From: Yinghuangia soli
Lineage (GTDB): Bacteria; Actinomycetota; Actinomycetes; Streptomycetales; Streptomycetaceae
Reading direction: 5' to 3'
Assembly (NCBI RefSeq): GCF_021502675.1
Contig: NZ_JAKFHA010000016.1
Coordinates: forward strand, 100,741 to 164,740
DNA: 64,000 nt
In this document: piece after piece, positions 16,612 to 52,880 of the stretch
Layout of the letters: each line of letters begins with the position of its first letter
Numbering within the stretch: the first letter of the stretch is position 1
Position numbers and translations under genes: made by a program
Notes under the pieces: model-generated
Databases searched by the model: none
What the model was told of the DNA's origin: nothing
Seen by the model: only the letters and a program-made list of their open reading frames with translations

Positions 16612-17184
16612 GTGTCCGTCAACATGGTCAAGGGTCAGCGCCTGTCGCTCGAAAAGCAGGGTGGCGGCCAGCTGACCCTGGTCCGGATGGGCCTGGGCTG
16701 GGACGCGATCAAGAAGAAGGGTCTGTTCGGCAGCCGCGAGCGCGACATCGACCTGGACGCCTCGTGCGTCCTGTTCGCCGACCAGCAGCCGGTGGACGCC
16801 GTCTACTTCGGCCACCTGGTCAGCGACGACGGTTCGATCCGCCACACCGGTGACAACCTCACCGGCGCCGGCGACGGCGACGACGAGTCGATCATCGTCG
16901 ACCTGACTCGTGTCCCCGTGCACGTGACGCAGATCATCTTCACGGTCAACTCGTTCCAGGGCCAGACCTTCCAGGAGGTCGACAACGCCTTCTGCCGCAT
17001 CGTCGACGAGACCAACGGCCAGGAGCTGGCCCGCTACACGCTCTCCGGCGGCGGTCCGAACAACGCCCAGATCATGGCGAAGCTCTACCGGCACGGCGAC
17101 GGCTGGAAGATGAGCGCGATCGGTGAGCCGGCCAACGGCCGCACCTTCACCGAGCTCATGCCGGCCCTGGCCGCGCACCTGTAA
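16612..17184 (+). CDS. terD: TerD-family calcium-binding stress protein
   Basis: A 190-residue single-domain TerD protein. The family binds calcium and belongs to membrane-linked tellurite and chemical-stress systems. Visible marks are MGLGWD, the strand IDLDASCVLFADQ and the acidic loop GDNLTGAGDGDDE, which supplies metal ligands. I chose the GTG at 16612, which reads MSVNMVKGQRLSLEK and has GAGGGGAG upstream. A longer frame to 16510 has no support. It is followed by a long hairpin and then a second TerD-type protein. Confidence 0.92.
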   Translation: MSVNMVKGQRLSLEKQGGGQLTLVRMGLGWDAIKKKGLFGSRERDIDLDASCVLFADQQPVDAVYFGHLVSDDGSIRHTGDNLTGAGDGDDESIIVDLTRVPVHVTQIIFTVNSFQGQTFQEVDNAFCRIVDETNGQELARYTLSGGGPNNAQIMAKLYRHGDGWKMSAIGEPANGRTFTELMPALAAHL

Positions 17185-17285: not shown

Positions 17286-19136
17286 ATGACCACCGGACTC
17301 GTTCGGGGGCAGAACCTGCCGCTGCCCGCACTCCAGGTCGCCGTCGACGTGGCCGCGCAGTGCCCGGTCGAAGTCGTCGCCGTCCTGCTCGACGCCGACC
17401 TCAAGGTCCGCGACGACGCCGACGTGGTCCAGCGCGGCGGAGCGGCACTCGCCGGGATCGCGGTGCGCGACCGCGGCATCGACGTCGACCTCGCGCAGAT
17501 TCCCGAGCAGGTCGACCGCGTCATGGTCGCGGCCACCCTCGAAGGCAGCGGCGTGGACCGCTTCGGCGCGGTCGCCGCACCGGTCGCCACCGTCACCGCG
17601 GGCGGCACCGAGGTCGGCACGTTCACCATCACCGACCTCGGCAGCGAGCGCGCCCTGCAGGCCGTCGAGCTGTACCGGCGCCAGGGCGCCTGGAAGGTCC
17701 GCGCGGTGGGCCAGGGCTACGACGGCGGCCTGGACGCGCTGCTGCGCGATGCCGGCGTCGAGCTCCGCGCGCCGATCGTGGACCGGGCCCGCACCCGGCT
17801 GGCCGGCCCGGCCGCGCCCGTGTACTCCGCCGCGACCCCGCCCGCCGCCGGCGCCCCCGGCACCCCGGTGCCGCCGGCCGCCGGCTTCCCGACCGCCGGC
17901 CTCCCCGGCGCCGCCGCCTCGATGTCCGCGGACCAGGCCGCGGCCCGTGCCGCGGACGCCGCTGCCGCGGCCGCCTCGGCCGCGTCCGCGCTGAGCGACG
18001 AGCAGCGCGAGGCCGCCGCCCGGGAGGCCCGCCGGGCCGTGGAGAAGCTCTACGAGCAGGTCTGGGGCATCTTCGAGGACGCCGCCCGCTCGGCCGCCTC
18101 GTACCGGTCCTCGGTGTCCTTCGCCGACAACCGCCTCGACCAGGACCTCGCGGACGTCCTGAACGACCCTTCCGCGCGCACCTCGCCGGCCGGCCTCGCC
18201 CTGCAGGACACCGCCCGCGCCAAGCACCGCGAACTGGTCGAGCGGGCCCGCGCCGGACTCGACAAGGACTCCGCGCAGCTCGCCGCCGAGGTCGCCCAGC
18301 TGGAGCCCAAGCTGCCGCCGGAGATGGCGCGTTGGGACTCGCCCGCGTGGGCCGGCTGGCGGGCCCCCGAGGACACCGCGCTGGCCATCCGGCTCGGTGA
18401 CCTGCACCTGCCGGAGAACCCGCAGCTGCGCATCCCGATGGTGCTGCGCCTCCCGATGGAGCGCGGGCTGTGGATCGACAGCGGCGCGACCGGTGTCGAC
18501 GACGAACTCGGCGTGGCGGGCGAGGCGGTCCGCGCCCGGGCCGGCGAACTGGCCGTGACGCTGGCCGCCCGCATGCTCGCGGCGTTCCCGATCGGCGACC
18601 TGAAGCTGCACGTCATCGACCCGGAGGGCAAGGGCGCCGCGTCCGCGCCGTTCGCGCCGCTGGCTGCCAGCGGGCTGCTGGTCGGCGCCGCGGCGACCAC
18701 CGCGCCGGAGGTCGCCGCGCTGATGGGCCGGCTGATGGACCGCGTCGAGCTGGCCCGGATGGCCATCGAGAGCGGCGCCACCGACGCGCTGCCCGAGCAC
18801 ATCGACTTCAGCCGCCAGCTGCTCGTGGTGCACGGCTTCCCGTTCGGCTTCGACGACCGCACGATGACGCAGCTGCGGCACCTGGTCGAAGAGGGCCCGC
18901 GGGTCGGCGTGCACGTCATGGTGGTCGGCAGCCGGGCGGACGCCGAGTCGTTCGGGCCGCTGCTCGACCCGCTGTGGCGCGCGATGCTGCGCCTGACCCC
19001 GATCCCCGAGGACCACATCGCGGACCCGTGGGTGCACCACTCGTGGACCTACACCCCGGACCTGCCCTCGGACGGCACCGGCGTGACGCAGACGCTGCTC
19101 ACCTGGGTCGCGTCCAGCGCGGCGGGCGGCCGCTGA
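17286..19136 (+). CDS. TerD domain fused to a degenerate FtsK/EccC-like ATPase domain
   Basis: A 616-residue, three-part protein. Residues 1 to about 165 form a TerD-like domain (VEVVAVLLDADLKVRDDAD). An Ala/Pro-rich linker and a probable coiled coil run to about 330. The C-terminal part follows the FtsK/EccC pattern: a Walker A position reading GATGVDD at residues 400-406 in place of GATGSGKS, then LKLHVIDPEGKG, a helix LMGRLMDRVELARMAIESGA like the FtsK EMERRY helix, then LLVVHGFP (512-519) at the Walker B strand, then RVGVHVMVVGSR. The lysine and the Walker B acids are missing, so ATP hydrolysis is unlikely. The ATG at 17286 has GAGGGGA upstream. A stress-linked scaffold role is inference. 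Confidence 0.75.
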   Translation: MTTGLVRGQNLPLPALQVAVDVAAQCPVEVVAVLLDADLKVRDDADVVQRGGAALAGIAVRDRGIDVDLAQIPEQVDRVMVAATLEGSGVDRFGAVAAPVATVTAGGTEVGTFTITDLGSERALQAVELYRRQGAWKVRAVGQGYDGGLDALLRDAGVELRAPIVDRARTRLAGPAAPVYSAATPPAAGAPGTPVPPAAGFPTAGLPGAAASMSADQAAARAADAAAAAASAASALSDEQREAAAREARRAVEKLYEQVWGIFEDAARSAASYRSSVSFADNRLDQDLADVLNDPSARTSPAGLALQDTARAKHRELVERARAGLDKDSAQLAAEVAQLEPKLPPEMARWDSPAWAGWRAPEDTALAIRLGDLHLPENPQLRIPMVLRLPMERGLWIDSGATGVDDELGVAGEAVRARAGELAVTLAARMLAAFPIGDLKLHVIDPEGKGAASAPFAPLAASGLLVGAAATTAPEVAALMGRLMDRVELARMAIESGATDALPEHIDFSRQLLVVHGFPFGFDDRTMTQLRHLVEEGPRVGVHVMVVGSRADAESFGPLLDPLWRAMLRLTPIPEDHIADPWVHHSWTYTPDLPSDGTGVTQTLLTWVASSAAGGR

Positions 19137-19317: not shown

Positions 19318-20025
19318 GTGTTCTCGTATGCCGGCATCCCCGGACCCCGTAGCGCCACCGGGTCGGAAGGGGCGGTCGGACCGGGCGGCTCGGGCGGGCC
19401 GGTCGACGTCGCGGAGCTGGAGTTCGCGGTGGTCGACCTGGAGACCACCGGCTTCTCGCCCGGGCGAGGCGACCGCATCGTGGAGATCGGCGTCGTGCGC
19501 ATCGCCGGCGACGGCCGGGTGCTGCGCGAGTGGACCACGCTGGTCGACCCGGGCCGCGGCGTGGGCGCCACGCAGGTGCACCGCATCACCGCGGCGGACG
19601 TCGCCGGAGCGCCCCGGTTCGCCGACATCGCGGGGGAGTTGGCCGCACTGCTGGCCGGCGCGGTCGTGGTCGCCCACAATGCGGCTTTCGAACAGCGCTT
19701 CCTGGAAGCCGAGTTCGCCGCGGCCGGGGTCGACCTGCCGACCCTGCCCGCGCTGTGCACCATGCGCCTGGCCAAGGCCACCGGCCTGCCGGTCGACGAC
19801 CACAAGCTGGGCACCTGCTGCGCGTACTTCGGCCTGGACTTCCCGGACGCGCACGCGGCCCTCGCCGACGCCCGGGTGACCGCGCGGCTGCTGCCCCTGC
19901 TGCTGCGTTCCGCGGGGGCGGCCGCACTGGTGCTCGGGGCGCAGCCCTGCGAGGCGCCGGCGTACCCGGCGTACCAGGGCCGGCTGCGGCCGCGCCGCGG
20001 GTTCGAGCCCGCCGAGGCGTACTGA
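19318..20025 (+). CDS. DnaQ-like 3'-5' exonuclease
   Basis: A 235-residue DEDD-family exonuclease. ExoI is VVDLETTGF, ExoII is VVAHNAAFEQRFLE and ExoIII is HAALADARVT, giving the expected metal-binding D, E, D and D with a histidine of the DEDDh type. A Gly/Pro-rich N-terminal 40 residues precede the domain, and about 40 basic residues follow it. It is not the polymerase III epsilon subunit by length or context. I chose the GTG at 19318 with GGAG ten bases upstream. Its place between ter genes and uvrA suggests a role in clearing damaged DNA ends. Confidence 0.88.
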   Translation: MFSYAGIPGPRSATGSEGAVGPGGSGGPVDVAELEFAVVDLETTGFSPGRGDRIVEIGVVRIAGDGRVLREWTTLVDPGRGVGATQVHRITAADVAGAPRFADIAGELAALLAGAVVVAHNAAFEQRFLEAEFAAAGVDLPTLPALCTMRLAKATGLPVDDHKLGTCCAYFGLDFPDAHAALADARVTARLLPLLLRSAGAAALVLGAQPCEAPAYPAYQGRLRPRRGFEPAEAY

Positions 20026-20070
20026 GCGACCAGGGGTCCGGCGTGTGAGCCGAGCCACGAAATACCACGG

Positions 20071-20115
20071 GAAGGTAAAGGCTTACTTGGTCTTTACTTT
20101 ACCTTCTGGCATGCT
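20071..20115 (+). promoter_or_regulatory. terC promoter overlapped by a 10-bp inverted repeat
   Basis: An AT-rich island holds perfect arms GAAGGTAAAG (20071-20080) and CTTTACCTTC (20097-20106) with a 16-base spacer. It overlaps a promoter candidate: TTGGTC at 20087-20092, 17 bases, then CATGCT at 20110-20115. Transcription would begin near 20122, right before the riboswitch. The repeat looks like a repressor operator; a metal-responsive regulator would fit but is unproven. Confidence 0.6.
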
Positions 20116-20123
20116 GATGGCAT

Positions 20124-20292
20124 CGGAGGGGAGTATTCCCCCTCGGCATGGTCGTCAGTACGACATATGCCCGCACGTCCCGATGGCGTAGCGGTGGATC
20201 ATATGTCCGGCCCTGCCGGTCCGGGCCGCAGTTCGCGGGCCCGGACGGAAGAGACCTCCGGCATCGACGCAACCTGCCACGTCTGCCGGAGG
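20124..20292 (+). promoter_or_regulatory. yybP-ykoY-type manganese riboswitch with SD-masking platform
   Basis: The leader of terC matches the yybP-ykoY pattern: P1 arms CGGAGG (20124-20129) and CCTCCG (20255-20260), the conserved loop GGGGAGTA right after the 5' arm, GTCGTCAGTACGAC in the facing hairpin, and GAGACCTCC closing P1. Internal helices ACATATG/CATATGT and GTCCGGGCC/GGGCCCGGAC are present. The 3' arm CCTCCGGCA (20255-20263) can instead pair perfectly with TGCCGGAGG (20284-20292), which contains the Shine-Dalgarno sequence. Metal binding should keep P1 closed and free the site, giving a translational on-switch. TerC proteins are known partners of this riboswitch. Confidence 0.82.
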
Positions 20293-20296
20293 CATT

Positions 20297-21346
20297 GTGG
20301 ACGTTTCGCTGACCACCTGGATCGTGACCATCGTGGTCCTTCTCGCCCTTGTCGGCGTGGACCTGGTCATCAACCGCAAACCCCACGAGGTGACCCTCAA
20401 GGAAGCCTCGCTGTGGGGCATCTTCTGGGTCGCACTCGCGGTCATCTTCGGAATCGGCGTCTGGATCTTCTCCGGGGCGCAGTACGGCGGCGAGTTCTTC
20501 GCCGGCTTCATCACCGAGAAGTCGCTCAGTGTCGACAACTTGTTCGTGTTCGTCCTGATCATGGGCAAGTTCGCGGTGCCGCCGCAGTACCAGCAGCGCG
20601 TCCTGCTGGTCGGCGTGCTGCTCGCGCTGGTGCTGCGCGGCATCTTCATCGGCCTCGGCGCCGCGGTCGTCTCGACCTTCTCGTGGGTGTTCTTCATCTT
20701 CGGCGCGTTCCTCATCTGGACCGCGTGGAAGCTGATCAAGGAGGCCCAGTCCGACGAGGAGGAGGAGTTCGAGGAGAACGCCGTCCTGCGCTACGTCGAG
20801 AAGGTCGCGCCCACCACGAAGGAGTACCGCGGCACGAAGCTCTTCGTGAAGGAGCACGGCAAGCGCTTCGTCACCCCGATGCTCATCGTGATGATCGCGG
20901 TCGGCACCACCGACGTGCTCTTCGCCCTGGACTCGATCCCGGCGATCTTCGGCCTCACCCAGGAGCCGTACATCGTCTTCACCGCGAACGCGTTCGCGCT
21001 GATGGGTCTGCGGCAGCTGTACTTCCTCATCGGCGGCCTGCTCAAGAAGCTGGTCTACCTCTCCTACGGCCTCTCGGTGATCCTCGGCTTCATCGGCGTC
21101 AAGCTGGTGCTCGAGGCGCTGCACGGCCAGGGTGTGAGCACCCCGGAGATCGGCATCCCGCTCTCGCTGGGCTTCATCGTCGCCACGCTGGCCGTCACCA
21201 CGGTGCTCAGCCTGCGCAAGTCGAAGAAGGACGCGCTGCAGGAACTGGCGGACGCGGACGCCGCGGGCACTGCGCCTGCTGCGGACGCTGCGGATTCCGC
21301 GGATGCCGTGGACAGCGCGGACACTGCGGACAGCGCGGTCAAGTAG
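20297..21346 (+). CDS. terC: TerC-family membrane protein, probable Mn(II) exporter
   Basis: A 349-residue polytopic protein with about eight to nine transmembrane segments. The family motif EKSLSVDNLFVFVLIM and the later TTDVLFALDSIPAIFG place intramembrane aspartates typical of TerC/Alx metal transporters. The C-terminal 30 residues are an Ala/Asp/Ser-rich tail. The start is a GTG at 20297 with GGAGG four bases before it, the same GGAGG that the riboswitch platform can hide. Manganese export is inferred from the riboswitch class and the family. A second terC lies at 51.8 kb. Confidence 0.9.
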   Translation: MDVSLTTWIVTIVVLLALVGVDLVINRKPHEVTLKEASLWGIFWVALAVIFGIGVWIFSGAQYGGEFFAGFITEKSLSVDNLFVFVLIMGKFAVPPQYQQRVLLVGVLLALVLRGIFIGLGAAVVSTFSWVFFIFGAFLIWTAWKLIKEAQSDEEEEFEENAVLRYVEKVAPTTKEYRGTKLFVKEHGKRFVTPMLIVMIAVGTTDVLFALDSIPAIFGLTQEPYIVFTANAFALMGLRQLYFLIGGLLKKLVYLSYGLSVILGFIGVKLVLEALHGQGVSTPEIGIPLSLGFIVATLAVTTVLSLRKSKKDALQELADADAAGTAPAADAADSADAVDSADTADSAVK

Positions 21347-51815: not shown

Positions 51816-52880
51816 TCATGAACGGGAAGGCTTGTCCTCGGCGTCATCCCCGTTTTCCGCGGCGCGTTCCTCCCCGCTTTCCCCGTCGCTTTCCTTGTCG
51901 CCTTCCCTGTCGCCTTCCCCGTCGTCCTTCTCCTTCGGCGAGCGCCAGACGCTCAATGCCACGGACACCCCCAGGACCAGCACGATCACCCCCAGGCTGA
52001 CCGGCGACGGGATCTCGGGGACGCTGTCGCTGATCATCTCGTGCGAGGCCTGCAGGATCAGCTTGACCGCGATGAAGGCCAGGATCAGGGCGATTCCGGT
52101 GCTGAGGTACCGGAACTTGTCGAGCAGCCCGGCGAGCAGGAAGTACAGCGCCCGCAGGCCCAGGATCGCGAAGGCGTTGCTCGTGTAGACGATGAACGTG
52201 TCGCTGCTGACCGCCAGTACGGCCGGCACGCTGTCCACTGCGAAGACCAGGTCGGCGGCCTCGATCGCGGCGACGACCGCGAGCAGCGGCGTGGCCACCA
52301 GGCGCCCCGCCTCGCGGACGAAGAACTTGTGGCCGACGTACTCGTCCCGTACCGGGATGACCTTGCGCAGCAGCTTGACCGCGATGCTCTTGCCCGGGTC
52401 GAACGTCTCCTCCTCGCCGCGGAGGATCTTGTACGTGCTCCAGAAGAGGATCGCTGCGAACACGAACAGCACCGCGGCGAACCGGCTGACGACCGCGACG
52501 CCGAGTGCCAGGAAGATCCCGCGGAACACCAGCGCGCCCAGCACACCGAAGAAGAGCACCCGGTGCTGATAGGCGCGCGGCACCTTGAAGTAGCCGAAGA
52601 TCAGCGTGAACACGAAGAGGTTGTCGACCGACAGGCTCTTCTCCAGCAGCCACGCGGTGGTGTACTCGGTGCCCGCGTCCACCCCGACGACCACGTAGAC
52701 CAGCGCGCCGAACGCGATGGCGAGGCCGATCCACAGGCAGCTCCATGCGGTGGCCTCGCGGAAGCCGATGACGTGCTCGCTGCGGTGGGCGAGCAAGTCG
52801 ATGGTCAACGACACCAACACGGTGGCGACGAAGACCATCCACAGCCAAAACGGCACGTCGTGCACGAGGTCGGACCTCAC
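51816..52880 (-). CDS. second TerC-family membrane protein
   Basis: A 354-residue paralogue of the protein at 20.3 kb, with the same EKSLSVDNLFVFTLIF and AADLVFAVDSVPAVLA motifs and eight to nine transmembrane segments, so a related metal-transport role is expected. It ends in a 45-residue highly charged tail (EGDREGDKESDGESGEE) encoded by imperfect 12-bp repeats. The start is a GTG at 52880. I see no yybP-ykoY riboswitch in the 102 bases upstream, unlike the first copy, so control must differ. Confidence 0.88.
   Translation of the reverse strand: MRSDLVHDVPFWLWMVFVATVLVSLTIDLLAHRSEHVIGFREATAWSCLWIGLAIAFGALVYVVVGVDAGTEYTTAWLLEKSLSVDNLFVFTLIFGYFKVPRAYQHRVLFFGVLGALVFRGIFLALGVAVVSRFAAVLFVFAAILFWSTYKILRGEEETFDPGKSIAVKLLRKVIPVRDEYVGHKFFVREAGRLVATPLLAVVAAIEAADLVFAVDSVPAVLAVSSDTFIVYTSNAFAILGLRALYFLLAGLLDKFRYLSTGIALILAFIAVKLILQASHEMISDSVPEIPSPVSLGVIVLVLGVSVALSVWRSPKEKDDGEGDREGDKESDGESGEERAAENGDDAEDKPSRS

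Follow-up and report, generated by a model that had tools for sequence, protein, structure and literature searches.

The question raised by this locus is whether the leader of a terC gene in the actinomycete Yinghuangia soli is a manganese-sensing RNA, and by which route such an RNA would control the gene. Within the window (the whole 64,000-nucleotide stretch of DNA that was analysed) a TerC-family gene has its 5' leader at 20124-20292, from the 5' arm of helix P1 to the end of the Shine-Dalgarno (SD) sequence; the leader is followed by terC itself (20297..21346, plus strand; 349 aa), which opens with GTG at 20297, the same start as in most of the relatives listed. The downstream ORF matches TerC with 181.6 bits (PF03741; cut-off 27.8), and its best named matches come from Yinghuangia seranimata (90%) and Embleya scabrispora (88%). 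The product is likely a manganese-exporting membrane protein; manganese exporters are placed in the TerC and GDT1/UPF0016 families by passages of PMC13274385 and by the annotation of E. coli alx. A second TerC paralogue lies at about 51846-52859 on the minus strand (44% identity over residues 2-342) and has no such leader, the covariance model R2 described below having one strong match in the window. Two TerD-domain genes are found near terC (16618-17184 and 17286-19136), between ORFs which, from their translations, we take to be uvrB-like and uvrA-like. Just 5' of the leader there is a perfect 10-bp inverted repeat (GAAGGTAAAG ... CTTTACCTTC, 20071-20080 / 20097-20106), which may belong to the promoter, be an operator or both, and CTTTACC or a near form of it recurs 5' of many Streptomycetaceae terC genes, apparently leaderless ones included.

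The leader folds as a yybP-ykoY (manganese) aptamer joined to an SD-sequestering hairpin, with all parts on the plus strand. The 5' arm of P1.1, CGGAGG (20124..20129), belongs to a helix with both-side changes in 5/6 pairs (helix 1) and runs into the 5' strand of L1, GGAGUA (20130..20135), which is invariant in 53/53 rows of the alignment; by our mapping, G9 and A10 of the solved structures would correspond to 20131 and 20132, the roles of the L1 residues being described in passages of PMC6754395 and PMC9190785. P1.2, the inner P1 helix of model R2, pairs UUCC (20136..20139) with GGAA (20247-20250) in a scaffold-compatible fold. P3 is made up of an outer helix (CGGCA, 20144..20148, with UGCCG, 20214-20218), a middle helix (GGUC, 20150..20153, with GGCC, 20209-20212) and an inner helix (GACAUAU, 20162..20168, with AUAUGUC, 20201-20207; helix 4), each backed by fold and co-variation; the 3' arms of the three together take up 20201..20218 in the fold. 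The L3 metal-site loop, GUCAGUAC (20154..20161), has GUCA and AC invariant in 53/53 rows. Fold and co-variation also support the P4 hairpin GUCCGGGCC/GGCCCGGAC (20219..20246; helix 5), which is followed by the 3' arm of P1.2 and the 3' strand of L1, GGAA and GAGA (20247..20254; fold and 53-row alignment). L1 GGGGAGUA is present opposite GAGA on P1 and is invariant or at least 90% conserved across the 53 rows. P1, P3 and P4 are backed by co-variation, and no separate P2 helix was identified in the leader, the class being a four-way junction whose two coaxial legs dock. Going by residue spacing, A20157 would be the discriminator adenosine, in the class an invariable L3 residue that coordinates manganese through N7; the corresponding residue of L. 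lactis (A41) or X. oryzae (A48) forms part of the manganese-sensing core together with A10 of L1, as set out in passages of PMC6754395 and PMC9190785.

All the motif strings quoted in the earlier note are found where it had placed them, with GGGGAGTA at 20128-20135, GTCGTCAGTACGAC at 20151-20164, GAGACCTCC at 20251-20259, CCTCCGGCA at 20255-20263 and TGCCGGAGG at 20284-20292. One of them had been misread: GTCGTCAGTACGAC, taken for an aptamer hairpin, consists of the L3 metal-site loop and the sequence flanking it, as GUCAGUAC forms an internal loop between two co-varying helices. The free MFE fold draws GTCGTCAGTACGAC as a local hairpin. The RNA folding energy of 20118-20320 is lower than that of 200/200 shuffles (z -3.07).

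The strand 20255..20263, CCUCCGGCA, serves both as the 3' arm of P1.1 and as the anti-SD arm, and so has two mutually exclusive partners: P1.1 (20124-20129/20255-20260) or the strand at 20284..20292, UGCCGGAGG, which contains the SD GGAGG at 20288-20292 and is assigned by pair probability and co-variation. The GGAGG lies four bases before the GTG across a CATT spacer, as had been claimed. Compensatory changes are found among the relatives in both the P1 and the sequestering helix, bearing out the proposal that the two structures exclude each other. When the switch strand was paired with its own downstream DNA at 28 terC loci, that of the window among them, the mean duplex energy was -16.2 kcal/mol, compared with -13.9 when permuted, and 0/10,000 permutations were as strong; own downstream DNA gave stronger pairing than the others' arms did on average in 23/28 loci and no stronger pairing in 5/28. 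The pairs are visible directly as CCUCCAGC/GCUGGAGG (L201), CCUCGAAC/GUUCGAGG (L211) and CCUUCGGCAG/CUGCCGAAGG (L204), and this co-variation upholds the suggestion that the P1 3' arm pairs with the SD strand. Ligand-free folding gives the pair between switch and SD strands a probability of 0.88-1.00, with the SD unpaired at 0.00-0.01. In prefix folds P1 stands at 0.68 when the RNA ends at 20263 and at 0.06 at 20275, and the sequestering helix reaches 0.99 at 20293; the aptamer therefore has a short time window unless metal holds P1. The best SD-open fold (-89.3) lies 10.5 kcal/mol above the free MFE (-99.8), a large gap that has to be closed by metal binding or by folding during transcription. 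Two exclusive helices thus share one strand and one of them covers the SD, which is the arrangement that defines a translational riboswitch; a consensus scan of 20020-20420 shows no intrinsic terminator, and the translational wiring read by the earlier note is supported. In the absence of manganese the nine-base switch strand would pair with UGCCGGAGG and hide the SD (OFF); with manganese in its site between L1 and L3, P1.1 would be stabilised, as it is in the solved structures (passages of PMC6754395 and PMC9190785), the switch strand would stay in CGGAGG/CCUCCG, and the GGAGG would be left free four bases before the GTG (ON).

Homology was followed from terC loci, of which 574 were confirmed and the best 80 kept; GGGAGTA and (A)AGAGACC, or sequences close to them, stand at the correct spacing in 52 of the 80. 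With the window added, these 52 make up the 53 rows of alignments A1 and A2, on which RNAalifold gives 26 pairs, 7 of them changed on both sides. Model R1, built from A2 (Streptomycetaceae terC rows), finds one place in the Y. soli genome up to E 10, that of the window, and has matches at E 0.01 in 177/296 Actinomycetes and 81/121 Streptomycetaceae genomes; it recovers E. coli alx (28.9 bits, E 0.00022), and mntP only at a non-significant level (9.4 bits, E 0.73). The 31 leaders behind model R2 come from actinobacterial families other than Streptomycetaceae, and their loci had been found via R1. R2 scores 80.3 bits on the window (E 8.6e-17 in the window and 1.3e-14 genome-wide; the runner-up within the window reaches 15.3 bits), recovers the same 52 of the best 80 terC loci as the motif search, and finds alx with 45.4 bits (E 1.7e-9) and mntP weakly (18.3 bits, E 0.0034); the yybP-ykoY class named at the outset is supported by these matches. 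At E 0.001 it has matches in 202/296 Actinomycetes genomes, 27 of these 296 having supplied rows to R2. In A3, a 46-row alignment biased towards the model to which it was fitted, 96.1% of cells are paired, 19/23 pairs show both-side changes, and 201 cells are changed on both sides compared with 64.5 in shuffles; sliding the partner by one base brings pairing to 49-50%.

The genes 3' of 45 loci (40 fetched R1 places and five RF00080-indicated loci) were sorted by tblastn into TerC (27), GDT1/UPF0016 (12) and neither (6). The last include element matches at L194, L196, L210 and L222, with the L196 ORF as chosen belonging to no Pfam family, and L220 and L221 from two Streptomycetaceae genomes, where divergent matches GGAGUGGAGUA and GAGAGAGCC (R1 41.3 and 38.7 bits) precede a short predicted membrane ORF. 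A second yybP-ykoY-like leader is present in the Y. soli genome itself, before a GDT1/UPF0016 gene (PF01169) on contig C7:43148-43250 (L001 1513-1615); it is found by R2 (59.8 bits), is below the cut-off of RF00080 (24.9 bits) and is not found by R1 up to E 10. L3 in A3 reads GUCGAC in the 12 GDT1 leaders and GUCA in the 28 terC leaders. It was considered that the GDT1 leaders, with GUCG for GUCA, had lost the discriminator adenosine; this idea was dropped because the numbering in passages of PMC6754395, by our mapping, puts the changed base at A45, with A48 kept.

The family model of Rfam is a poor yardstick for these leaders. The earlier note had made an RF00080 match its check and counted the lack of one above the gathering score as a refutation, an outcome that did occur; RF00080 (Rfam 15) has no match in the window at gathering (45 bits) and none to E 10 in 20000-20400, but the same test rejects E. 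coli alx, which has no match at E 1, and mntP, which reaches 41.6 of 45 bits. Because these known members also fail, the miss is considered a shortfall of the present model rather than class-defining. A subset of 11 related terC loci gave no RF00080 match; in searches with stricter filters, as applied across more than 40 genomes, nothing exceeds the cut-off, whether in Streptomycetaceae (121 genomes, 39 of them with some match at E 1) or in Actinomycetes (0/296 genomes; E 0.01 reached in 11/296). Two of 14 control genomes, given as a count rather than by name, exceed the cut-off, and E. coli is among those with a match. An earlier use of RF00080 gave 49.13 bits for the leader 5' of C. glutamicum terC cg2157, as stated in a passage of PMC3890552. 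Matches to Pseudomon-groES (18.4 bits) and Glutamine-II (9.7 bits) are far below their cut-offs and were set aside as chance. With 0/296 Actinomycetes genomes for RF00080 against 202/296 for R2, cut-off-based annotation will therefore miss most such switches.

Other explanations of the leader have to be weighed against manganese-controlled translation. GC-rich DNA folds readily and RF00080 has no match, so chance hairpins without a ligand could be proposed; this has next to no probability given an R2 match at E 1.3e-14, both-side changes in 19/23 pairs and matches at E 0.001 in 202/296 Actinomycetes genomes, and it is already refuted by the pair changes and the genome-wide R2 match. It is improbable, too, that the same fold senses another divalent metal or a condition such as pH: alkaline pH, too, elicits a response from the alx and mntP elements of E. 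coli (in passages of PMC9603457) and L3 is here the 8-nt GUCAGUAC rather than the RF00080 consensus GUCAACAUAC, but the same 8-nt L3 is found in E. coli alx (GUCAUUAC), the putative discriminator adenosine is invariant in 53/53 rows, and manganese-exporter families adjoin 39/45 tested loci.

Somewhat more room is left, while still considered unlikely, for the same aptamer acting mainly at the transcript level, through Rho-dependent termination or mRNA decay after blocked translation and not through initiation alone. RNA-seq of S. coelicolor presents the yybP element before SCO2347 as an example of attenuation (in a passage of PMC4681348), and regulation there may therefore not be purely translational; against this for the window stand the lack of an intrinsic terminator in 20020-20420 and the co-varying partner of the switch strand, which is the SD itself. 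The reading preferred here, with a probability of about 0.87, is that the leader is a Mn(II) riboswitch of the yybP-ykoY class, alx/terC subtype, which turns on translation of a TerC-family protein. Its class and translational ON-switch wiring are well supported; we infer manganese as the ligand, the direction of switching and translational regulation, with possible secondary effects at the transcript level.

A less expected result is that Streptomycetaceae have lost the aptamer repeatedly. Of the 121 genomes of the family, 116 carry a close TerC (by our reading, E below 1e-115), and by our comparison of places an R1 match lies directly upstream in 78/116 and is absent in 38/116; the survey covers the close TerC of each genome. 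Of the 38 match-less leaders 37 were fetched, G081 being left out with a match starting at residue 59; their best R2 match is 13.2 bits and best R1 match 16.4 bits, and three element-bearing leaders fetched alongside have R2 scores of 39.8 to 72.3. By inspection, the CUCCGGC arm and its SD partner are kept in 7/37 (L146, L147, L152, L156, L162, L169, L172), and a TACNGT -10-like box lies six or seven bases 5' of the start codon in another 7/37 (L149, L150, L151, L166, L168, L171, L173), which on this basis appear leaderless; the remaining 23/37 have neither platform arm nor -10-like box. The aptamer is also missing in 28 of the best 80 of 574 terC loci, 7/28 being platform-only by inspection (L002, L003, L008, L015, L026, L045, L057), with identical leader sequences in L002/L146 and L003/L169. 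On a TerC tree of 81 rows made by a quick method, with 14/78 inner branches well supported, presence of the aptamer needs 9 changes, at least three of them forced by supported branches; 15 aptamer-less rows form one clade, probably a paralogue. The idea that aptamer-less leaders are locked ON is unsupported, as predicted open-SD probability across 12 of them (two identical; leader starts set by eye) is mixed, from 0.00 to 0.52; their 5' arms were compared with shuffles in two cases, giving fractions of 0.600 and 0.086. It is tentatively proposed, at somewhat less than even odds, that terC of Streptomycetaceae lost its aptamer on several occasions but kept or remade a short 5' hairpin and an SD-sequestering hairpin (e.g. 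CCGGAG/CUCCGG in L162), leaving aptamer-less platforms that may still set terC translation, or switch it by other means, and that in other lineages terC became leaderless but retained its promoter.

The locus connects manganese control with a TerC gene in a Yinghuangia-like actinomycete and offers an ON/OFF anatomy that is readable and testable; loci graded from the complete switch through the bare platform to genes that appear leaderless provide material for studying riboswitch loss, and a gap in the RF00080 (Rfam 15) coverage of Actinomycetes is exposed. The class itself was already known, as the earlier note acknowledged. Passages of PMC8164766 remark on yybP-ykoY elements in Corynebacterium and Streptomyces; the comparative study PMC3766115 reports 232 yybP-ykoY sites spread over numerous lineages and tabulates two actinobacterial groups; and mneA and terC of V. 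parahaemolyticus lie behind such elements and are induced by manganese (passages of PMC13274385). No dedicated study of a Streptomyces terC manganese riboswitch is among the matches listed from the open-licence literature.

The closest known system is the leader of E. coli alx, which like that of mntP is a manganese riboswitch of the yybP-ykoY family, with mntP translation controlled by manganese (passages of PMC9603457). The alx leader shares with the window the core AGGGGAGUA, the CGUCANYACG of L3, GAGACC and a TerC-family target (a manganese exporter); in the window, by contrast, P1 is GC-rich with its 3' arm within the nine-base complement of the SD strand, and a 32-nt insert (20169-20200) is present in P3. 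The L1 GGGGAGUA and GAGACC are shared with E. coli mntP and the RF00080 consensus, as the docked L1/L3 architecture of the class (passages of PMC6754395) is predicted to be, whereas L3 is there the 10-nt GUCAACAUAC and here the 8-nt GUCAGUAC. The GDT1 leader of the same genome shares the R2 match and differs in an L3 that begins GUCGACAUGC, a longer leader and another exporter family. SCO2347 of S. coelicolor (PMC4681348) and cg2157 terC of C. glutamicum (PMC3890552), compared by their description in passages of these papers, have actinobacterial yybP-ykoY leaders, the element of cg2157 being directly 5' of terC. With such leaders already published, the element in the window is therefore a further case of a known class and an ordinary member of it.
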